Source: a virus. Taken from it: a stretch of 28,680 nucleotides of DNA. A model generated the notes under the pieces. It saw nothing but the letters and a program-made list of their open reading frames with translations, was not told the DNA's origin and ran no database searches. The position numbers and the translations under genes were made by a program. The DNA is taken from positions 1 to 28,680 of IMG/VR virus record IMGVR_UViG_3300019132_000067; one strand, 5' to 3'. Positions 5,861 through 25,802 of this stretch are shown piece by piece; the stretch's first letter is position 1; every line of letters starts with the position of its first letter.

Positions 5861-7151
5861 GCTTCCGCCGAAGCTGATCCCGGTCTTCTCGGGAGAGGCG
5901 GATGTCAGAGGCGCATACGGCGGTCGCGGTTCGGGTAAGACCCGCAGCTTCGCCAAGATGACGGCTGTGCGCGGGTATATGTGGAGCAAGGCGGACCGCG
6001 AGGGCATCTTGCTCTGCGGCCGGCAGTTCATGAACTCGCTGGACGATTCCAGCTTGGAAGAGATCAAGGCCGCGATCCGGTCGGAACCCTGGCTGGATGC
6101 TCATTACGAGATCGGAGAGAAGTACGTTCGCACGAAGGACGGACGGATCTCCTACAAGTTCACCGGGCTTGACCGGAACATTGATAGCGTCAAGTCGAAG
6201 TCGCGCATTCTGCTCTGTTGGGTGGATGAGGCGGAGCCTGTCACTGAAGAGGCGTGGCAAAAGCTCATTCCAACGCTTCGTGAAGAGGATAGCGAGCTTT
6301 GGGTGACGTGGAACCCGGAGCGCCGCAACAGTCCGACACACAAGCGCTTCCGCGAGGCGAAGGACCCTCGCATGAAGGTCGTAGAGCTGAATTGGCGGGA
6401 TAACCCGTGGTTCCCGGCAAGCCTCGACCGCAAGCGGCTCAAGGACAAAGAAGAGCGCCCTGACAGCTACGAGCACATTTGGGAAGGCGACTTTGTGACT
6501 GTGGTTGAGGGCGCGTATTATGCGAGCCATCTCACGAAGGCGAAGGAAGAGGGTCGCATTGGCCGGGTTGCGGCTGACCCGCTGATGACGCTCCGGGCCT
6601 TTGTCGATATTGGCGGCACGGGCGCAAGGGCTGATGCATTCGCGATCTGGATTGTTCAATTCGTGGGCAAGGAAATCCGCGTTCTGGACTACTACGAGGC
6701 GGTTGGACAGCCGTTAGAGGCGCATCTGAATTGGATGCGCGGTCGCGGCTACACGTCGGACAGGTGCCAAATCTGGCTGCCGCATGACGGTGCGTCGAAC
6801 GACAAGGTTTATGACGTTTCTTATGAGAGCGCGTTGAGCGCCGCTGGCTACACGGTGACCGTGGTCCCGAACCAGGGCAAGGGCGCTGCCGCCAAGCGGA
6901 TCGAGGCGGCGCGGCGCATCTTCCCGGCCGTCTGGTTCAACGAGAGCACGACGGAAGCCGGGCGTGCTGCTCTTGGCTGGTATCACGAGAAGCGGGATGC
7001 GGAGCGAGGCATTGGCCTGGGCCCGGAGCACGACTGGTCATCGCATGGGGCCGATGCTTTCGGCCTGATGGCCGTCGCTTATGAAGAGCCGCGTGTTGAG
7101 CGTGAGAAAAAGTTGAGGCCGCGCCCAATGGGCGGCTGGATGGGTGCTTGA
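5841..7151 (+). CDS. Terminase large subunit (packaging ATPase/nuclease)
   Basis: A 436-residue DNA-packaging motor that docks on the portal and cuts concatemers. The ATPase domain shows Walker A 'GGRGSGKT' at 27-34 and Walker B 'ILLCWVDEAE' at 123-132, with 'TWNPE' at 156-160 as coupling motif. The RNase H-like nuclease domain has acidic residues in 'FVDIGGTG' (D256), 'WLPHDG' (D316) and 'SHGADAFG' (D405). Length and motifs fit the PBSX/P22-type group. The start overlaps the small subunit gene and the stop touches the portal start (TGATG). The position matches P22 gene 2. Confidence 0.95.
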   Translation: MATAKIELPPKLIPVFSGEADVRGAYGGRGSGKTRSFAKMTAVRGYMWSKADREGILLCGRQFMNSLDDSSLEEIKAAIRSEPWLDAHYEIGEKYVRTKDGRISYKFTGLDRNIDSVKSKSRILLCWVDEAEPVTEEAWQKLIPTLREEDSELWVTWNPERRNSPTHKRFREAKDPRMKVVELNWRDNPWFPASLDRKRLKDKEERPDSYEHIWEGDFVTVVEGAYYASHLTKAKEEGRIGRVAADPLMTLRAFVDIGGTGARADAFAIWIVQFVGKEIRVLDYYEAVGQPLEAHLNWMRGRGYTSDRCQIWLPHDGASNDKVYDVSYESALSAAGYTVTVVPNQGKGAAAKRIEAARRIFPAVWFNESTTEAGRAALGWYHEKRDAERGIGLGPEHDWSSHGADAFGLMAVAYEEPRVEREKKLRPRPMGGWMGA

Positions 7152-9277
7152 TGGCTGACGATCAGAACACCACGGCGAAGTCGGATGAGACCGGCGACGC
7201 GGATTTTCTGAAGGAAGCCCGCGAGCGCTATGACCGCGCGCGTCAACGCGAACTCAGCAACGTTGCCGAGGCTTATGAGGATCTTGAGTTTCGAGCAGGC
7301 GAGCAATGGGACAATGAAGCCAAGAAGGCGCGGGCTGATCGTCCTTGCCTGACCATTAACCGCATTCCGCAGTTCGTGCGCCAAGTCACGGGCGACATGC
7401 GGCAGATGAAGCCGGCCATCAAGGTCGTGCCGGTCGACAACAAGGGCGATCCCGAGACGGCGGAAGTCCAGGCGGGCATGATCCGCTATATCGAGAACCG
7501 TTCGGATGCGCCTGCTGTGTACTTCCAGGCTGCCGATAGCCAGGTCGCCTGTGGCGTTGGCGCGTGGCGTGTGCTGACCGAATACGCGGATGACAGCACG
7601 TTCAATCAGGAGCTGCGAATTGCTCCGATTGAGGACGCTGTTGCGGTCATGTGGGACCCGGACGCGGTTTTGCCGACGCGCGAGGACGCCATGTGGTGCT
7701 TCGTGCCGGTCGATATGACCCGCGCGGCCTTCAAGGCCAAATACCCGAACGCCAGCGTCGAGAGCTTCGACGGTGGTGAGCACCAAGCGACGTTCACCGA
7801 TTGGTACGGGGACGATTACGTTCGGGTTGCGGAGTACTGGTACAAGAAGCCGGCCAAGCGCTTGTTGGCCTTGTCGCCCGATGGATCGGTTGTCGATCTG
7901 ACCGATGCGGAGCCGCAGGAGATCGAGCTAGCGAAGGCGGAAGGCGCTCGGATCGAGTGGCGGGATAGTTACAAGGTTTGCCGGGCCATCATCTCGGCAA
8001 GTGAAGTGCTGGAGCCGCATACCGAATGGCCGGGGCGCTATATCCCGATTGTGCCGGTGTGGGGCGAAGAAATCAGGATCGGCCGCAAGATCGTCCGTCA
8101 TGGCATCGTGCGCTACGCCAAAGATCCGCAGCGCATGTACAACTACTTCCGCTCGGCTCAGACGGAGGTGATCGCACTCCAGCCGAAAGCGCCGTTCATT
8201 GGGACGGAAAAGCAGTTCCAGCAGTATCAAGACGTTTGGGAAACGGCGAACACCGCGAACCATCCGTATTTGGTGTACACGCCGGACGGCGCAGCTCCCC
8301 CGCCTCAACGGGTTCCGCCGCCTGTCTCGTCTCAGGGCATCGATGAGGGCGTTGCTCTTGCCGCCGAGGACATGAAGGCGGTCACCGGCATTTATGACGC
8401 TTCGCTCGGGGCCAAGTCGAACGAGAGCAGTGGCAAGGCCATTCTGGCCCGGCAACGGGAAGGCGACACGGGCACATACGTCTATATCGACAACTTTGCC
8501 CGCGCGATCCGTTACACCGGCAAGATCCTGATCGACCTGATCCCGAAGGTCTACGATACGGCCCGTACCATTCGGATCATCGGAGAGGATGGCAAGGTTG
8601 ATGTGGTGGACATCAACAAGCCGCAGGGGCTGGCTGAAGACGGAGAAACGACCATCTACAAGAACGATGTGACGGTCGGTTCCTACGATGTCGTTCTGGA
8701 AATGGGGCCGAGCTACAATACGCGGCGCGAGGAAGCCAAGGAGGGGATGACAGCCTTCCTGCAATCGGCTCCCGACACTGCGCCGTTGATCATCGATCTG
8801 ATCGCCAAGGCGCAAGATTGGCCAATGGCGAACGAGATTGCCGAGCGTCTGGAAGCGGTTTTACCGCCACAGATCAAGGCGCTGAAAGCCGAGAAAGAGG
8901 GCAAGCCTCTTCCGCCCGAAATGGCCCCGCCGCCTCCCGACCCGTTGCAGGAGCTGGAAGTGGCCGGCAAGCAGCTCGACATCCGCAAGAAAGAGCTTGA
9001 GGTGGCGGAAAAGGAAATGGCCCTTCTAGCGCCATCCGCGCCTGTCGGGGCTCAGCAACCCGCTCCAACGGCGAATGCCGCTCCTGAGCCAAATGCGGGG
9101 CGCGTGGAGGCTATCGAAGCGGCAGTGATCGAGTTGCAGGGCGTCGTTTCGCAGATCGTGGCGCTGCTACAGCCGCCACCGATGCCGCAAGCGCCCGAGA
9201 TGACCATGCAGCAGCCGCCTTCGGGCGGCTCTTTTGTTTCCGAGATCCCGCCGGAGCAGCAGTCTCCGGTGATGTGA
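7151..9277 (+). CDS. P22-type portal protein
   Basis: A 708-residue portal, very close in length to P22 gp1 (725). It forms the dodecameric ring at one capsid vertex through which DNA enters and leaves. N-terminal features such as 'FRAGEQWDNEAKKARADRPC' and 'LTINRIPQFVRQVTGDMRQ' are characteristic of P22-like portals. The C-terminal 150 residues are rich in Pro, Gln, Ala and Glu, the coiled-coil barrel region. I chose ATG 7151, overlapping the terminase stop, over a TTG at 7148. The extreme 3' end of the gene contains a terminator-like hairpin at 9213-9230. The position matches P22 gene 1. Confidence 0.93.
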   Translation: MADDQNTTAKSDETGDADFLKEARERYDRARQRELSNVAEAYEDLEFRAGEQWDNEAKKARADRPCLTINRIPQFVRQVTGDMRQMKPAIKVVPVDNKGDPETAEVQAGMIRYIENRSDAPAVYFQAADSQVACGVGAWRVLTEYADDSTFNQELRIAPIEDAVAVMWDPDAVLPTREDAMWCFVPVDMTRAAFKAKYPNASVESFDGGEHQATFTDWYGDDYVRVAEYWYKKPAKRLLALSPDGSVVDLTDAEPQEIELAKAEGARIEWRDSYKVCRAIISASEVLEPHTEWPGRYIPIVPVWGEEIRIGRKIVRHGIVRYAKDPQRMYNYFRSAQTEVIALQPKAPFIGTEKQFQQYQDVWETANTANHPYLVYTPDGAAPPPQRVPPPVSSQGIDEGVALAAEDMKAVTGIYDASLGAKSNESSGKAILARQREGDTGTYVYIDNFARAIRYTGKILIDLIPKVYDTARTIRIIGEDGKVDVVDINKPQGLAEDGETTIYKNDVTVGSYDVVLEMGPSYNTRREEAKEGMTAFLQSAPDTAPLIIDLIAKAQDWPMANEIAERLEAVLPPQIKALKAEKEGKPLPPEMAPPPPDPLQELEVAGKQLDIRKKELEVAEKEMALLAPSAPVGAQQPAPTANAAPEPNAGRVEAIEAAVIELQGVVSQIVALLQPPPMPQAPEMTMQQPPSGGSFVSEIPPEQQSPVM
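9213..9236 (+). terminator. Terminator-like hairpin inside 3' end of portal gene
   Basis: A perfect 7-bp stem AGCCGCC/GGCGGCT (9213-9219 with 9224-9230) with TTCG loop, followed by CTTTTG. It lies about 45 bases before the portal stop, so translating ribosomes would disrupt it. It is nearly the same as the hairpin at 9324-9341. Confidence 0.45.
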
Positions 9278-10233: not shown

Positions 10234-11463
10234 ATGAGCAACAACCTCATTACGACTTCGATCTTCGCCAAGGCAGCGGTGAAGATCCTCGACAACGAGC
10301 TTGTCATGGGCTCCCGCGTCTATCGCGGCCATGAAAGCGACTTTGACAAGAAGGTGAACGGCTACGAGCCGGGGCAGACGATCTCCGTCCGCAAGCCCAA
10401 CCAGTTCAAGGTCCGTAAGGGTGCCACTGCCTCCAATCAAGACATCGTTGAGGGCAGCACGACCATCACCGTCAACAAGCAGATCGGCGTGGATTTTAAG
10501 CTCACTTCGGTTGAGCGGACCATGCACATCACGGAGCTTGCCGAGCGGGTGATCAAGCCGGCGATGGTCCCCTTGGCCAACGAGATCGACCGCGACCTTC
10601 ACACCTTGGCGATGACCAACTTCTATAACTGGGTTGGCACGCCGGGCGGCGCTCTCGACAGCTACTCCAAGTGGCTGAAGGGACCGCAGCGTCTGAAGGA
10701 AATGGCCGTCCCGATGGATGACGTGGCCGGTGTCATTTCGCCGGCAGACGAAGCATCTCTTCTCGGCTCCCTGTCGAGCACCTATGTCCAGCAGATCGCA
10801 TCCAGCGCGATCCGCGAGGGCGCGGTGGGCCGTCTGGCGTCGGTCGATACCTACGTGACCCAGAACGCTCCGGTTCTGACCACGGGCAGCCGCACGAATG
10901 GTCTGGTCAATGGTGCCAGCCAGGCGGTGACCTATGATGCGGCACAGGCCAAGAAGTGGGGGCAAACCCTCAACGCCGATGGCTTGGGCGCTTCGGCCAC
11001 CATCAAGGCCGGTGAAGTGTTCACTATCGCGGAGGTGTACGCCGTCAATCCGGTCACGAAGCAAGTGCTGCCCTATTTGCAGCAGTTCGTGGTCACGGAG
11101 GATGTCACCGCAGATGGCAGCGGCGCTGCAACGCTGTCCATTCAGCCGGCGATCATCACGACCGGTGCGTTCCAGACGGTCTCTGCCGCTCCTGCCGACA
11201 ACGCGGTCATCACTTGGGTGGGTTCTGCCTCGCAGAATTATCAGCAGAACCTCATCTTCCACCGCAACGCTCTGTCGCTTGTGGTGGTCCCGCTGGTGAT
11301 GCCGGACGGCGCGACAGGCGGCGCTCGCGAGAGCTACAAGAACCTCTCGGTTCGCGTTCAGCCGTACTATGACGGCACGAACGACGTGAGCAATTGGCGT
11401 CTTGATGTGCTCTACGGCTGCGCGGCCATCGATCCGCGCCTCGGCACCCGTATCAACGGCTGA
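10234..11463 (+). CDS. Major capsid protein (P22 coat family)
   Basis: A 409-residue coat protein. The N-terminus ('NNLITTSIFAKAAVKILDNE') and the block 'VNGYEPGQTISVRKP' followed by 'GVDFKLTSVERTM' match the P22 coat family (P22 gp5 is 430 residues; HK97-like fold with an inserted domain). The segment after about residue 220 (Val/Thr/Ala-rich, 'TKQVLPYLQQFVVTEDVTAD') corresponds in position to the inserted beta domain. It forms the icosahedral shell on the scaffold. The ribosome site is weak (GCAGAG), unusual for the most abundant phage protein. A terminator-like hairpin follows 13 bases after the stop. Confidence 0.93.
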   Translation: MSNNLITTSIFAKAAVKILDNELVMGSRVYRGHESDFDKKVNGYEPGQTISVRKPNQFKVRKGATASNQDIVEGSTTITVNKQIGVDFKLTSVERTMHITELAERVIKPAMVPLANEIDRDLHTLAMTNFYNWVGTPGGALDSYSKWLKGPQRLKEMAVPMDDVAGVISPADEASLLGSLSSTYVQQIASSAIREGAVGRLASVDTYVTQNAPVLTTGSRTNGLVNGASQAVTYDAAQAKKWGQTLNADGLGASATIKAGEVFTIAEVYAVNPVTKQVLPYLQQFVVTEDVTADGSGAATLSIQPAIITTGAFQTVSAAPADNAVITWVGSASQNYQQNLIFHRNALSLVVVPLVMPDGATGGARESYKNLSVRVQPYYDGTNDVSNWRLDVLYGCAAIDPRLGTRING

Positions 11464-11803: not shown

Positions 11804-12190
11804 ATGACGAGCCGCACCGATCTGATCAAGATGGCCCTTCAGCACGTGAAGGCTGTGGCGGCTGGACAGCCCGTCAGCGCAGAGGACAATCAACTTGTGT
11901 CGGATCGCCTAGCCGGGATCTTCGCAGAACTGGCGGCGCGAGAGATTTGCTATGTGCCTGATCTGGACGATGTGCCGGATGAGTGGGCCGAAGCACTGAG
12001 CCTGATCGTCGCGAAGCACGTTGCCCCTGCATTTGGCCTGGCTGGCTCCGAGTTGTCCGACATCGTAGCGCTTGCCGGCGACGCAGAGGGGCGCTTGCGC
12101 GTGATGACCCGCAAGAACGGTACGGGCCGTCCTCTCGGAATTGATCCAGCATTGCGCTCCCGGCGTCTTGCGGGAACGTGGCGGTCCTGA
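11804..12190 (+). CDS. Probable P22 gp4-like head-tail adaptor
   Basis: A 128-residue, mainly helical protein ('MTSRTDLIKMALQHVKAVAA' at the start, 'LVSDRLAGIFAELAAREICY', 'DEWAEALSLIVAKHVAPAFG'). It is encoded between coat and the gp10-like gene, the place of P22 gene 4 (166 residues), whose product plugs onto the portal and begins the tail. ATG 11804 is chosen because in-frame starts further upstream would overlap the preceding gene. The stop overlaps the next ATG by one base. Assignment rests on position and fold style more than on clear sequence identity. Confidence 0.6.
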   Translation: MTSRTDLIKMALQHVKAVAAGQPVSAEDNQLVSDRLAGIFAELAAREICYVPDLDDVPDEWAEALSLIVAKHVAPAFGLAGSELSDIVALAGDAEGRLRVMTRKNGTGRPLGIDPALRSRRLAGTWRS

Positions 12191-13608
12191 TGCCCGCGCT
12201 GACGTTTCCCCTCAATTCATCGCCGGGCCTTGAGCCGCAGGAGAGCGGCGGGCGCTTGATCAACTGCTATGCCGAGAAGCTGAACGATGGCCGGATCATC
12301 CGTCGCCGCGTCCCCGGTTTGCGGCAGTTGTTCGACATTACCGGCCGCTCGCATTGTCGGGGCTTTTTGGAGGTCAACGGCACCCTGATCGTTGTTCTTG
12401 ATGATCGGGTCTACACGGTCACGGAAGCAAGCGGGATCTACACCGTCTTGGATCGGGGGGCGTTACCTGGCAGCGGCCCGGTTACCCTGGCACGGAACAA
12501 CAAGACGCCAACACCCGATATTGCCTGTGTGGCTGATGGCATCGCCTATGTGTTGTCCTTGTCAGGGGCTCCGGCCAACTATCCTGACAATGATGTGGGC
12601 TCGCCCAACGCCGTCACCTCAATCGATGGCTATTTCGTGTTCACCTATGGCGATGCGCGGGCGCGTTCGTCGGGTTTGAACGATACAGCCATCAATACCC
12701 TGGATTATGCCTTTGCGGAGTCGAAGCCGGACGGCCTCTTTCGTCCTGTGTCGTTCCGCCGTGAGCTGTACCTGATGGGCTCCGGCACCATCGAGGTATG
12801 GCGCAACACGGGCAATGCTACGGGCTTCCCGTTCTCGTTCCTCGATACCATTCCGAGGGGCCTTGCCGGGCCCTATGCGGTTGCCGGCTTTGAGGATGGC
12901 TGGACCAACACCCTAATTTGGGTCGGTGATGACAGTATCGTCTACCAACTCAACGGGTACACCCCCACGCGGATCTCCACGCACGCCGTGGAGCGCATGA
13001 TTGAGGCTCTGGAGGACAAGAGCGATCTGCAAGCCTCCGTCTTCATGGTTTCGGGGCATGCCTTCTGGGCGCTGTCTTCAGGCGCATGGACGTGGGTTTA
13101 TGACCTGACAACGGGCGCATGGCACGAGCGCAAGTCCTACGGGGTTAGCCGCTGGCGTGGGTCTCAGTCCGTCAAAGCCTTCGGTAAGTGGCTCGTAGGA
13201 GACCTGGCGTCCGGAAAGGTGTTTGAGGCCCGTGAGGATTATTACCGGGAAGGCAACGATCCGATCCCGGTTCGTTTGGTCACCCAAAGCGTTGGAGATT
13301 TCCCGAACCGGACGGCGGCAACCCGGCTCGATCTTGACCTTGTGGCCGGCACCGGGGCAGCGGCTGGCCTCGATCCCATCGAGACGGCCCCGAAGGTGTC
13401 GATCTCCTGGTCGTTGGATGGGGGTTATACCTTCACCCAACCCATCTTACGCGAAATCGGCGCGCAAGGCCGGTCAATGACGCGCATTTCGGTGAACCGG
13501 CTGGGGCTCATTCAGCCGGCAGGTTTCTGCGTCGCCATCGAATGTTCCGACCCGGTGCATTTTGGGGTGACGGGCGCACATCTCGACGCACTGCCGAGGG
13601 CAAAGTAA
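12190..13608 (+). CDS. P22 gp10-like packaged-DNA stabilisation / tail hub protein
   Basis: A 472-residue protein, the same length as P22 gp10. The N-terminus 'ALTFPLNSSPGLEPQESGG' and the phrase 'LINCYAEKL' followed by a beta-rich body with repeated 'G.L.VV', 'GYFVFTYGDAR', 'LYLMGSGTIEVWRNTG' and 'LIWVGDDSIVYQLNG' are typical of this family. The protein extends the tail tube below gp4 and holds the DNA in. ATG 12190 overlaps the upstream stop; a GTG at 12178 is possible. The gene directly after it in P22 encodes the tail needle, but here it is a macro-domain protein. Confidence 0.9.
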   Translation: MPALTFPLNSSPGLEPQESGGRLINCYAEKLNDGRIIRRRVPGLRQLFDITGRSHCRGFLEVNGTLIVVLDDRVYTVTEASGIYTVLDRGALPGSGPVTLARNNKTPTPDIACVADGIAYVLSLSGAPANYPDNDVGSPNAVTSIDGYFVFTYGDARARSSGLNDTAINTLDYAFAESKPDGLFRPVSFRRELYLMGSGTIEVWRNTGNATGFPFSFLDTIPRGLAGPYAVAGFEDGWTNTLIWVGDDSIVYQLNGYTPTRISTHAVERMIEALEDKSDLQASVFMVSGHAFWALSSGAWTWVYDLTTGAWHERKSYGVSRWRGSQSVKAFGKWLVGDLASGKVFEAREDYYREGNDPIPVRLVTQSVGDFPNRTAATRLDLDLVAGTGAAAGLDPIETAPKVSISWSLDGGYTFTQPILREIGAQGRSMTRISVNRLGLIQPAGFCVAIECSDPVHFGVTGAHLDALPRAK

Positions 13609-14165
13609 TGAAGATCACGATCCGCGACACTAATCCGGCGTTCGCGGCAGCGTGGACCTTTGATTTGCCGGGCGTTGTGGTGGAGCACGGCTCCATTCTG
13701 GATGTGATCTGCGACGCCTTTGTGAGTCCGGCTAATTCGTTCGGTTTCATGGACGGCGGAGTGGATTATGCCTATTCGGCCTATATGGGCTGGCATGTGC
13801 AAGCCGCAGTTCAACGCGAAATAGCTAAGATGCCGTTCGGTGAACTGCTTGTCGGACAGGCCCTTGTGATACCGACCGGCTACGACCGCGCTCCGCATCT
13901 CATTTGCGCCCCCACTATGCGCATTCCAAGGCGCATCACTGACCCTGCGGATGTCATGTTGGCGACCAGAGCGGCCGTTTCCGCGGCCCTTGAGCGTGGA
14001 TTGGAACACATCGCCTTCCCCGGCATGGGGACTGGCTGTGGTGGATTGCCGTTTGACATAGCTTCAAAGGCCATGCGCGCGGGCATCGAAACCGCCCTCG
14101 CGCCTCTCCCTCCGCCGCAGACGTGGCGTGAGGCCCAAGAGAGGCATTCCCTACTCATAGGCTAA
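13608..14165 (+). CDS. Macro-domain (ADP-ribose-binding) protein
   Basis: A 185-residue protein that is almost entirely one macro domain. The ligand loop is 'DAFVSPANSFGFMDGGVDYA' at 36-55 (Asn43 and the GGVD segment), followed by 'GQALVIPTGYDRAPHLICAP' at 83-102 and the second loop 'FPGMGTGCGGLPF' at 137-149. Macro domains bind ADP-ribose, and some remove it from protein or DNA. ATG 13608 overlaps the gp10-like stop (TAATG), so it is translated with the virion genes. No catalytic assignment can be made from sequence reading alone. I recall similar 'SPANSFGFMDGG' proteins from other phages, but not an established role. Confidence 0.88.
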   Translation: MKITIRDTNPAFAAAWTFDLPGVVVEHGSILDVICDAFVSPANSFGFMDGGVDYAYSAYMGWHVQAAVQREIAKMPFGELLVGQALVIPTGYDRAPHLICAPTMRIPRRITDPADVMLATRAAVSAALERGLEHIAFPGMGTGCGGLPFDIASKAMRAGIETALAPLPPPQTWREAQERHSLLIG

Positions 14166-14167
14166 AG

Positions 14168-14377
14168 ATGACCACAAAAGTTTTGCCGCTCCCGTCCGCG
14201 CAAGCACCTGTTGCCGAGCCGGGCAGCGGACGCATGGACGCGACTTGGTATCGTCAGCTCAACTCTCTCGAACGGGCCGTGCGTGAGCTGCAACAGAATG
14301 TCGAGACGCTGCGGCAAGCTTTGAACGAGGCCCGGCAGAATCCGACGACCGCTTACCCACCCATTTCCTCTTTCTAA
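14168..14377 (+). CDS. Small coiled-coil virion-module protein, 69 aa
   Basis: ATG 14168 lies two bases after the macro gene stop. The first 20 residues are Pro/Ala-rich. Then comes 'MDATWYRQLNSLERAVRELQ', leading into a coiled coil to about residue 55 (heptad-like Leu/Val spacing), and a short tail 'YPPISSF'. The gene sits where P22 carries genes 26 (needle) and 14. A short trimeric plug or needle stub is conceivable. No homology to P22 gp26 (233 residues) is visible to me. Confidence 0.6.
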   Translation: MTTKVLPLPSAQAPVAEPGSGRMDATWYRQLNSLERAVRELQQNVETLRQALNEARQNPTTAYPPISSF

Positions 14378-14389
14378 GGGACCTGACCC

Positions 14390-15103
14390 ATGGCGAGCGC
14401 TAAAGGCGCGCGGAGGGCTGCAATTTGGGGCACGCAACAGCTCCAGCAGAACGAGCCGCGCATTCTAGGGGAACTCGATAAGGGGTTCGACTACGCCAAG
14501 GGGCAATACGGGGCGGCGGATACCTATTACCAGCCCTACGCCGAGCAATATGGGCGCGGCTCCGTCCTCTATGGCGATGCCAGCGGCATCAATGGGGCCG
14601 AGGGCGCACAGAGGGCCACGCAAGCTTTCCAGGCCGGTCCCGGCTATCAGTGGGCCATGGACCAGGGAATGCAAGCCCTGAACCGCCGCAGGGCCGCTGG
14701 AGGCATGTTGAACAGCGGCAATGCCGATACCGATGCGATCCAGTTCGGGCAGGGCCTTGCCAACCAGCGCTGGGATCAGTGGCTTGCGAACTTGGGGCAG
14801 CTCGATCAGCGCGGACTTGCCACGGCTGGCGCGCGTGCCGGTATGACAACCCGGCTGGGCGATCTCGGCATGGGCCATTACGGGCAGCGCGCCGGCATCA
14901 TGGACGAAAACGTGCGTGACATCGTGGGGCTTGGCGTGGGGGCTTTCAAAGCGGGCGATCAAGCGAAAGCCGCGAACGAGCAGATGCGTATGGGCGCGAT
15001 CAACCTGGGCATGCAGATCCTTGGCAACGGGATTGCTGGCGGGGGCGGCGGAGGCGGCGGAGGCGGCGGTTTCGCTGCCTTGAGCAAGCTTTTCGGAGGG
15101 TAG
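14390..15103 (+). CDS. Ejection (DNA transfer) protein, P22 gp7 position
   Basis: A 237-residue protein similar in length to P22 gp7 (229) and in the same position before two larger ejection proteins. 'GPGYQWAMDQGMQALNRRRA', then 'AAGGMLNSGNADTDAIQFG', is a signature I associate with phage internal virion / DNA transfer proteins. The C-terminus has a run of 11 glycines (residues about 217-227), encoded by a GGCGGA-type repeat near 15040-15070, then 'FAALSKLFGG'. AAGGGA precedes ATG 14390. The protein is expected inside the capsid and to be ejected with DNA. Confidence 0.75.
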   Translation: MASAKGARRAAIWGTQQLQQNEPRILGELDKGFDYAKGQYGAADTYYQPYAEQYGRGSVLYGDASGINGAEGAQRATQAFQAGPGYQWAMDQGMQALNRRRAAGGMLNSGNADTDAIQFGQGLANQRWDQWLANLGQLDQRGLATAGARAGMTTRLGDLGMGHYGQRAGIMDENVRDIVGLGVGAFKAGDQAKAANEQMRMGAINLGMQILGNGIAGGGGGGGGGGGFAALSKLFGG

Positions 15104-15106
15104 TTG

Positions 15107-17002
15107 ATGGCGCTGCGCATCTATGACCTGAGCACGAACTACCCCGACTATTTCGGGATGCTGTCTCAGATTGGGCAAACGGTTACCAGTGGGTTCGATA
15201 AGGCGCGGAAGAACGCCCAGGAAGGCGAGGCCGCTCAGCTCCTCAGTGAGCTTGCCGGTCAGCCCCAAACGGCTTCCGCTTCGGATGCAACTGGAGGCGT
15301 GACCACGCTTGCCAGCCTTGGTCAGAGCACCCCGCAGCAGCAGGGCTATAACGCCTCCGGCAAGATGCCCTCTTTCGTGGAGCGTCAGGGGGCAACCCCG
15401 TCGCTGGATCTCGCCGGACTGTTTACGGAAGCGGAGCGGCGCTATGCTCTGCCAAACGGCTATCTGTCGCGCACCGCCTCTATCGAGAGCCGCAACGATC
15501 CGAACGCGCGCAATCCCAACTCTTCGGCCGAGGGCCTGTTTCAGTTCACGGATCGCACGGCGCGCGGCTATGGCCTGAACAACAAGTTCGACCCGGTTGC
15601 AAGCACGGATGCGGCGGGTCGTCTCGCTGCGGACAATCGGGCTGCTCTCAAGCGCGCTCTTGGCCGTGATCCGACGCCTGGCGAGCTTTATCTTGCCCAT
15701 CAGCAGGGCGCGGGCGGGGCAATCAAGTTGCTCAGCAACCCGAATGCGCGGGCCGTGGATGTCGTGGGGCAAGATGCCGTTCACCTGAATGGCGGCGATC
15801 CCAACATGACCGCCCAACAGTTCGCCGGCCGGTGGATCAGCAAGTTGGATGGACGCGCGGACGCTCCGGCTCCCGGCGCTCAACCGGCGCAATTCCAAGT
15901 GCCGGGGCAGGCGGGCCTTCCGGGCTCGGCCGTAGGCAACGGCCAGATCCGCCCCGATTTGATCCGCCGTCTTGCCGCTAATCCGTATACGCGGGAGCTG
16001 GCAAGCAAACTGATCACCCAGCAACTCAGTCCGCAGGGGCAATACAGCCTGACGACTGTTGGCGATCAGGCCGTACGGTTCAACCAGAGGACCGGGGCGG
16101 TTGAGGTCGTGCCGGGCATCACGAAGCCAAATATCGAGGTAAAGGAGGTGAATGGGCGGCTTGTGGCAGTCGATAAGTCCAATCTGTCCACGCGCGACGT
16201 AACGCCTGACGGTCTCCCGCAGGCCATGTTTAATGGCAACAGCGTTGACGCTCAGGCTCTGAACTATCTGGTCCAGTCCGGCCAATTGACTCGCGAACAG
16301 GCAGCACAGGTTGCCGCTGGAAAGACGATCACAGGTCCGAATGGGGAGATCTTGTTTGCGCCTCCGGCCGCTCTTGTTGGCGGTGTATCCGGTGGCCCGC
16401 AAATGCAGCCACAGCAGCCTCCCGAAGGCCCCACTGCGCAATCCTCTGCCGCGCAACCTGGCTTGGTGCAGCTGACTGCACCGAAGGCGGAAAAGCCCAC
16501 TGATGGACAATCCACCACAGCACTTTATGCCAGACGCGCGAAGGAGGCCGACCAGGTTCTGAGCGGCACCGAGGATGTGGGAAAGAGTAGCTGGGAGAAC
16601 ATCAAGTCAGCCGTTCCCAAGGTGGGGAACCACTTGGTCAGCGAGGACTTTCAGAAATTTGAGCAAGCGCAACGCAACTTCATCAACGCCCTTCTTCGTA
16701 AGGAGTCCGGCGCTGTTATTGGCCCGGAAGAATTTGACAACGCACGGAAGCAATACTTCCCACAACCCGGTGATAGCGATGCGGTTCTCGTTCAGAAACG
16801 ACAGAACCGCCAAACGGCTATTGAAGAGCTTACCAAAGCGGCTGGTCCTGCCATGCCACGTCAGCCATTGCCGACCGGCGTGACTGCGGCGCAGGCCCTA
16901 GCCGAAGCAAAAGGGGCTTACGCCAAGGCAACCCCGCAGCAAAAAGCCGCCATTCGGCAACGCCTGCAATCCTGGGGTATTGACCCATCGAGGCTCGACT
17001 AA
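15107..17002 (+). CDS. Ejection protein with lytic transglycosylase (SLT) domain, P22 gp20 position
   Basis: A 631-residue internal virion protein. Residues about 103-250 form a lytic transglycosylase-like domain: 'LPNGYLSRTASIESRNDPNA' (catalytic Glu127), 'SSAEGLFQFTDRTARGYGL', 'PGELYLAHQQGAGGAIKLL'. It would open the peptidoglycan during DNA entry. The rest is Gln/Ala/Pro-rich with a charged helical C-terminus ('QTAIEELTKAAGP', 'AYAKATPQQKAAIRQRLQSW'). I chose ATG 15107, 7 bases after GGAGGG, over the TTG at 15104. The stop overlaps the next start. The enzymatic domain appears to be absent from P22 gp20, so the equivalence is positional. Confidence 0.85.
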   Translation: MALRIYDLSTNYPDYFGMLSQIGQTVTSGFDKARKNAQEGEAAQLLSELAGQPQTASASDATGGVTTLASLGQSTPQQQGYNASGKMPSFVERQGATPSLDLAGLFTEAERRYALPNGYLSRTASIESRNDPNARNPNSSAEGLFQFTDRTARGYGLNNKFDPVASTDAAGRLAADNRAALKRALGRDPTPGELYLAHQQGAGGAIKLLSNPNARAVDVVGQDAVHLNGGDPNMTAQQFAGRWISKLDGRADAPAPGAQPAQFQVPGQAGLPGSAVGNGQIRPDLIRRLAANPYTRELASKLITQQLSPQGQYSLTTVGDQAVRFNQRTGAVEVVPGITKPNIEVKEVNGRLVAVDKSNLSTRDVTPDGLPQAMFNGNSVDAQALNYLVQSGQLTREQAAQVAAGKTITGPNGEILFAPPAALVGGVSGGPQMQPQQPPEGPTAQSSAAQPGLVQLTAPKAEKPTDGQSTTALYARRAKEADQVLSGTEDVGKSSWENIKSAVPKVGNHLVSEDFQKFEQAQRNFINALLRKESGAVIGPEEFDNARKQYFPQPGDSDAVLVQKRQNRQTAIEELTKAAGPAMPRQPLPTGVTAAQALAEAKGAYAKATPQQKAAIRQRLQSWGIDPSRLD

Positions 17003-25097: not shown

Positions 25098-25802
25098 ATG
25101 CTTAAATTGTCTCTTGCGGCAGCCGTTGCGCTGCCTGTGATCGCGTGCGCCCAAGTTCAAACGGAGGTTCAACAGCGTCAGTCCGAAATGCTCAATCCCA
25201 CGGTGCGGGTTGAACTGGAACAGGGCAGCGGATCGGGCACCGTCATTCATTCCTCGTCCAAGGGGACCTTTCTACTCACCAATCATCACGTGGCCGGCGA
25301 GAAAGGGGCGAAAGTCCAGGTCCGGTTCTGGCTGCTCAACGACAACAGCGAAACGGTTCTCTCGGTCCTGCGGGACGCGGAAGTGGTGGCGTCCGATGCT
25401 GACCGCGATCTTGCGTTGCTTCGTCTTGTGGATAGCGAGTTCAGGGCGGAAGCCGTCGCGCGCATCGCGCCTGAACGCACTCGGCTCCACCCTGGTGAGG
25501 ATGTGTGGGTGGCTGGTGCTGCGCTGGGCCTACGGGCGCACCTCACGCAAGGGCTTTTGAGCCTTGTGGCGCATTCGGTCATGAAGCGGGATCACATGGT
25601 GACCTCGGCTCCAGTGGTGCCGGGTAATTCAGGGGGCGGCGTCTACCATCGTGGGGCCGATGGGCGGTTCTACTACATCGGCACGGTGCGCGCTGTGGCT
25701 TTGGTCGGGTTCGGCTCCGTAGTCCCCACCACGAATTACGCCATTCCCAATTCCAGCCTGCGGGAGTTCCTGAAGGCCAATGACTTCGGGTGGCTGGTGT
25801 AA
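25098..25802 (+). CDS. Trypsin-like serine protease with lipoprotein signal
   Basis: A 234-residue chymotrypsin-fold protease with all three catalytic residues visible: His64 in 'LLTNHHVAG', Asp104 in 'DADRDLALL', Ser178 in 'VVPGNSGGGV', plus 'GSGSGTVI' at 43-50, as in HtrA-type proteases. There is no PDZ domain. The N-terminus 'MLKLSLAAAVALPVIAC' has a lipobox V-I-A-C, so Cys17 is probably lipidated and the enzyme faces the periplasm. It has its own intergenic region upstream and is coupled (TAATG) to the metallophosphoesterase gene downstream. Substrate is unknown; it could process envelope or surface proteins of the lysogen, or help lysis. Confidence 0.88.
   Translation: MLKLSLAAAVALPVIACAQVQTEVQQRQSEMLNPTVRVELEQGSGSGTVIHSSSKGTFLLTNHHVAGEKGAKVQVRFWLLNDNSETVLSVLRDAEVVASDADRDLALLRLVDSEFRAEAVARIAPERTRLHPGEDVWVAGAALGLRAHLTQGLLSLVAHSVMKRDHMVTSAPVVPGNSGGGVYHRGADGRFYYIGTVRAVALVGFGSVVPTTNYAIPNSSLREFLKANDFGWLV

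Follow-up and report, generated by a model that had tools for sequence, protein, structure and literature searches.

A complete macro-domain protein of the phrog_2613 family is encoded in the virion operon of the window, which is a linear 28.7-kb IMG/VR fragment (28,680 nucleotides), and is probably a late-made hydrolase of an ADP-ribose derivative that serves counter-defence. Taking the parts of this reading together, it seems reasonably likely that the gene is mobile cargo and that its product, made late in infection, hydrolyses an ADP-ribose derivative and so blunts an NAD-derived defence or clears by-products. The general idea has already been published (Iyer et al., 2022; PMC9503650), and the window protein fits it.

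The window virus is a short-tailed podophage of the P22 type, and its genes come in the order terminase, P22-type portal, scaffold, P22-type coat, gp10-type head closure, macro, a 69-aa ORF, gp7-like ejection and an SLT-domain virion protein. The features of the operon that are used below are as follows.

7148..9277, + strand, P22-type portal (PF16510, E 3e-198)
10234..11463, + strand, P22-type coat protein (PF11651, E 4e-45)
12178..13608, + strand, gp10-type head-closure protein Hc3, 476 aa (phrog_578, E 1.2e-96)
13606..13610, + strand, TAATG stop/start overlap coupling gp10 to the macro gene (read from the sequence)
13608..14165, + strand, macro-domain protein, 185 aa, intact, phrog_2613 family (PF01661, phrog_2613, AlphaFold2)
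14168..14377, + strand, 69-aa ORF, candidate needle/tip protein (homologue of the small ORF directly after gp10 in relatives)
14390..15103, + strand, gp7-like DNA ejection protein (phrog_598, E 5.8e-6)
15104..17002, + strand, SLT transglycosylase-domain virion protein (PF01464, E 3.9e-7)

The window gp10 protein shares 41% identity with the head completion protein of Pam5, and the gp7-like ejection gene gave tblastn matches in gp10-bearing contigs (e.g. L172, E 1e-25). Promoter and terminator scans from 11.4 to 15.2 kb returned sites no more numerous than in shuffled sequence. A promoter of its own for the macro gene was considered and rejected, as the single weak promoter-like site seen in 3.8 kb is what chance predicts and none adjoins the gene. 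The base composition of the macro region was unremarkable in a composition check.

The macro protein matched PF01661 from profile position 1 to 118 of 118 (E 4.3e-16, 59.4 bits against a curated cut-off of 22), which is far above chance, and matched phrog_2613 with an E-value of 1.9e-49. The original prediction of a complete macro domain, made from the letters of the DNA, is borne out by this whole-profile match within an intact ORF of 185 aa. The predicted overlap with the preceding gene was likewise found, the ATG at 13608 overlapping the gp10 stop as TAATG; the longest mechanical start would be 13542, and the start at 13608 is common to nearly all relatives. The gene had also been described as preceding the ejection genes in the tail-needle position. 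An ejection-like gene of phrog_598 does lie downstream, but the 69-aa ORF (14168-14377) intervenes, and the term tail-needle position fits only loosely, the gene after macro being the needle-like ORF.

To define the joint at which the macro gene sits, the region after gp10 was compared with that of relatives. In Pam5 and at loci L165 and L171, an ORF of 48-53 aa carrying a G(R/Q)..W motif comes immediately after gp10, joined to it by TGATG or TAATG. The 69-aa ORF of the window has this motif in common with the small post-gp10 ORFs and aligned with those of Pam5, L165 and L171 at local scores of 68-72, compared with 22 ± 4 for shuffled sequences, none of which reached these scores in 500 trials. 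A macro gene followed gp10 in none of the five named phages that are its nearest gp10 relatives (Pam5, BA3, DSL-LC05, P26218 and X14). A macro-family HMM, which recovers the two positive controls (L020 and L001), found no member in 80 gp10-bearing loci collected by scanning IMG/VR with a gp10 profile; some of these contigs end soon after gp10, so that a few of them do not count as absences. A single-protein scan of IMG/VR returned no close gp10 relatives. Because relatives that lack a macro gene have gp10 directly before the small ORF, the macro gene is, on this gene-order comparison, an insertion at the joint between the two, and these relatives provide a paired natural control. Accessory genes in general seem to settle at the joint after gp10. 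A toxin-antitoxin pair formed by the macro gene and the 69-aa ORF was rejected, since homologues of the latter follow gp10 in phages that have no macro gene. The post-gp10 small ORF is annotated as hypothetical in Pam5 and is apparently unnamed in this podophage group. In DSL-LC05 (L154, 6451-7014), a sialate O-acetylesterase gene lies directly after gp10.

Among the selected loci whose neighbours were annotated, a sample that speaks to recurrence and movement and not to enrichment, the macro gene was found at many joints. It follows a gp10-like gene in the Microcystis phage Mae-JY35 (L001), where the preceding gene belongs to phrog_3287 and is gp10-like by size and place only, and follows a phrog_578 gp10 in L020. 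It lies two genes after the portal and before the scaffold in L012 and directly after the portal in L019. In L043 the preceding gene encodes a MuF-type head protein, in L016 and L080 large virion proteins precede it in the vicinity of ejection genes, and in L009, L071, L076, L094 and L062 it comes behind tail fibre genes. In Gifsy-1, SEN4 and Chuche it has a tail fibre gene on one side and the tail fibre assembly (Tfa) gene on the other. In the rhizobiophages phiM12, P106B and TM16 it sits in early or accessory regions, and the copies of L021, L047 and L055 have genes for replication or tRNA repair nearby. In the tree, the window copy groups with those of L009 and L071, the latter from Agrobacterium (bootstrap 99, SH-aLRT 95), which use a fibre/endolysin joint, unlike the window copy. 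A single clade of the copies near gp10-type genes (window, L001 and L020) was rejected by an AU test (p-AU 0.0006), the group having been chosen post hoc, after the first tree. At least seven joint changes were counted on the tree among 15 late copies. Judged by these placements, the macro gene behaves as mobile cargo and not as a fixed tail part. In L009 (8444-9001) and L071 (7447-8001), a phrog_32459 protein of 184-185 aa, possibly a fibre chaperone, is encoded between the tail fibre and the macro gene.

The Mae-JY35 protein (XAI96517) is 52% identical to the window protein and is likewise encoded after a gp10-like gene, and the Gifsy-1 protein (STM2588.1n) sits between fibre and Tfa; both belong to tree branches separate from the window copy, Gifsy-1 being represented by the near-identical SEN4. 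Iyer et al. surveyed phage macro domains, reported their occurrence among virion-morphogenesis genes, and proposed that such proteins are packaged, serve early counter-defence and act on soluble derivatives of ADP-ribose (Iyer et al., 2022; PMC9503650). The window gene resembles the virion-operon macros of that survey in being a standalone gene among morphogenesis genes, whereas its placement represents an insertion, repeated within the family at changing joints.

The structure was modelled with AlphaFold2 from an alignment of 66 sequences (A3) comprising the window protein and fetched homologues, giving a mean pLDDT of 96 and a pTM of 0.92. Compared with the PDB, the model matched 289 chains at Z ≥ 8; the top rows are all macro domains, and every listed match either is a macro domain or has one as its core or fusion partner. 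Among them the yeast ADP-ribose-1''-monophosphatase 1njr scores best (Z 18.9, rmsd 2.8, 177 residues); YmdB reaches Z 18.2 and DarG macro domains Z 16.7-17.3. Z gaps below 1 are ties, and 1njr is distinguished by coverage, being the only one among the PDB matches listed to span residues 1-185, and not by Z. A profile search of PDB sequences also placed 1njr first (E 1.6e-15). The macro fold is common to DarG, the MacroD-type proteins and the window protein, with the best coverage by 1njr. The predicted ligand loops lie roughly where they had been placed, loop 1 at residues 41-53 and the beta6-alpha4 loop at about 137-148.

13728..13766, + strand, loop 1, residues 41-53 (PANSFGFMDGGVD), N43/D53 kept and aligned with E. 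coli YmdB
13911..13922, + strand, PTMR motif, residues 102-105, invariant in 66 of 66
14016..14051, + strand, beta6-alpha4 phosphate loop, residues 137-148 (FPGMGTGCGGLP), conserved in A3 and placed by the secondary structure of the model

All 66 sequences of A3 have P41, N43, S44, G46, M48, D53, E79, P102, T103, M104, R105 and G145, a conservation that for loop 1 and GELLVGQ is partly due to selection because those peptides served as patterns in the homologue scans; D53 and P102-R105 were absent from all search patterns. In OiMacroD, N30 and D40 bind the 2''-OH of the distal ribose, and mutants lose catalytic efficiency (PMC5413906). N43 and D53 have the same 10-residue spacing, align with YmdB and are the counterpart of the MacroD-type pair. 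The protein is probably active as an enzyme. The PTMR motif is invariant in the aligned members, cellular ones included.

These observations suggest a course of events in which a macro cargo gene landed among the late genes of a P22-type podophage, separating gp10 from the needle-like small ORF and becoming the gene translationally coupled to gp10. The protein would then be produced late, alongside the virion proteins. We infer that it binds and hydrolyses an ADP-ribose derivative, which may be a soluble ADP-ribose substituted at the 1'' or 2'' position or an ester-linked adduct, and that hydrolysis in the infected cell could blunt NAD-derived host signals, toxins or adducts, or clear by-products. 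Counter-defence, as first predicted, stands as the leading hypothesis and is the reading published for phage macro domains in general (PMC9503650), and the Asn/Asp pair is kept in this macro protein of a virion operon; the parallel with DarG is not supported. Another phage macro protein, PhiKZ104, has been characterized by knock-down, which lowers the level of ChmA (PMC12571901).

Late expression is awkward for action against an early-acting defence unless the protein is packaged, and packaging is possible, although the sequence carries no mark of it. That the protein is carried in the virion, ejected with the DNA and active when the next infection begins is nevertheless judged unlikely. It is co-translated with gp10 and encoded close to the ejection genes, several relatives adjoin ejection, portal or MuF genes, and packaging has been proposed for such genes (Iyer et al., 2022; PMC9503650). 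However, relatives also occur beside fibre or endolysin genes and in early regions, so that no single virion compartment is indicated, and the window protein has no extra domain compared with early-region homologues. No virion proteomics was found for the family, and no virion mass-spectrometry report of it was found in the literature. Position in the virion operon has been read as evidence of packaging; the changing joints and early copies weaken that reading and make position by itself a poor guide. The more specific proposal, that the podophage ejects packaged macro protein to erase an ADP-ribose alarm before phage expression and that insertion among virion genes recurs because their timing and placement allow packaging, is slightly less likely still.

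A purely metabolic or RNA-repair function, in which ADP-ribose-1''-phosphate or O-acetyl-ADP-ribose is cleaned up without any role in defence, appears as improbable as packaging itself. In its favour is the nearest full-length fold, the yeast protein YMR087W (1njr, 1txz and 1ty8), which has 25% identity and has in common with the window protein the N-terminal strand and helix and the SPxNS(F/Y)G..GG.D and PT motifs. Unlike YMR087W, the window protein has no long insertions and carries Cys100 at the position of His145 and PTMR in place of PTVV. His145 has a catalytic role in the yeast 1''-phosphatase; the aligned position is Ser, Ala or Cys across the macro family and Cys100 in the window protein, and because of this substitution the yeast reaction and substrate are not transferable. 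MacroD-type proteins (E. coli YmdB and OiMacroD) have the Asn and Asp of loop 1 likewise 10 residues apart and the same fold (Z 16.7-18.2), but share only about 20-23% identity with the window protein, which has an extra N-terminal element and falls far below the NCBIfam cut-offs of the PRK00431 models. The phrog_2613-type macro is widespread in cellular genomes (L071 to L150), including those of Herpetosiphon, cyanobacteria, planctomycetes, Bacteroidota and Lokiarchaeota, which would allow a housekeeping or metabolic role. Against clean-up, the window genes that were searched include no partner for RNA repair or NAD salvage, the window being a fragment, and the scattered occurrence in phages hints at selection by conflict.

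The original prediction drew a parallel with DarG; a DarG-like enzyme that removes ADP-ribose from DNA and reverses the action of a host DarT is now very unlikely. The similarity consists of a shared fold (Z 17.3), N..G.MG.G and PTxR-like motifs, and weak profile matches (PADLOC, E 5e-6; NCBIfam DarG model, 18.9 bits against a cut-off of 250). Two DarG proteins above the NCBIfam cut-off (L156 and L157) were fetched and aligned with the macro family. Their INFPTK(R/K)HW segment aligns with APTMR(V/I)P, so that the Lys is replaced by the invariant Met104. K80 is essential in DarG of T. aquaticus (PMC7003065; PMC11543638), and numbering and alignment suggest that it corresponds to the FPTK Lys (residue 81 in L157). 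The window protein is, furthermore, a single domain of 185 aa that lacks the DarT-binding C-terminal domain. No darT turned up in the window genes that were searched, and the neighbours of the macro gene are gp10 and a small ORF conserved in phages. DarG-like activity is rejected as the main reading on account of the change of Lys to Met. N43, D53 and M104/R105 set the macro family apart from DarG and make soluble or ester-linked ADP-ribose derivatives the first candidate substrates of the proposed late-made hydrolase.

The least probable alternative is that the macro fold has been reused for a structural or assembly role in the tail, as needle, plug or fibre chaperone: the gene lies within the virion operon, its relatives in Gifsy-1, SEN4 and Chuche are flanked by tail fibre and fibre assembly genes, and some PHROG and GenBank labels read "tail", but the joint is not fixed, near relatives of the window phage do without the gene, other copies lie in early regions, and the ligand residues are invariant. 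A functional meaning of the tail-needle slot is not supported, since many other joints are used by relatives and a separate ORF is the needle-like one; a needle or structural role is rejected in view of the insertion, the variable joint and that separate ORF. A needle also disagrees with the globular alpha/beta fold, which is not a trimeric coiled-coil fibre, the needle-like homologue being the next ORF.

Elsewhere in the window, positions 25098-25802 encode a serine protease of the Trypsin_2 type whose N-terminus is hydrophobic; its gene adjoins a DNA-repair-type exonuclease gene, and it weakly matches the protease modules of defence systems.
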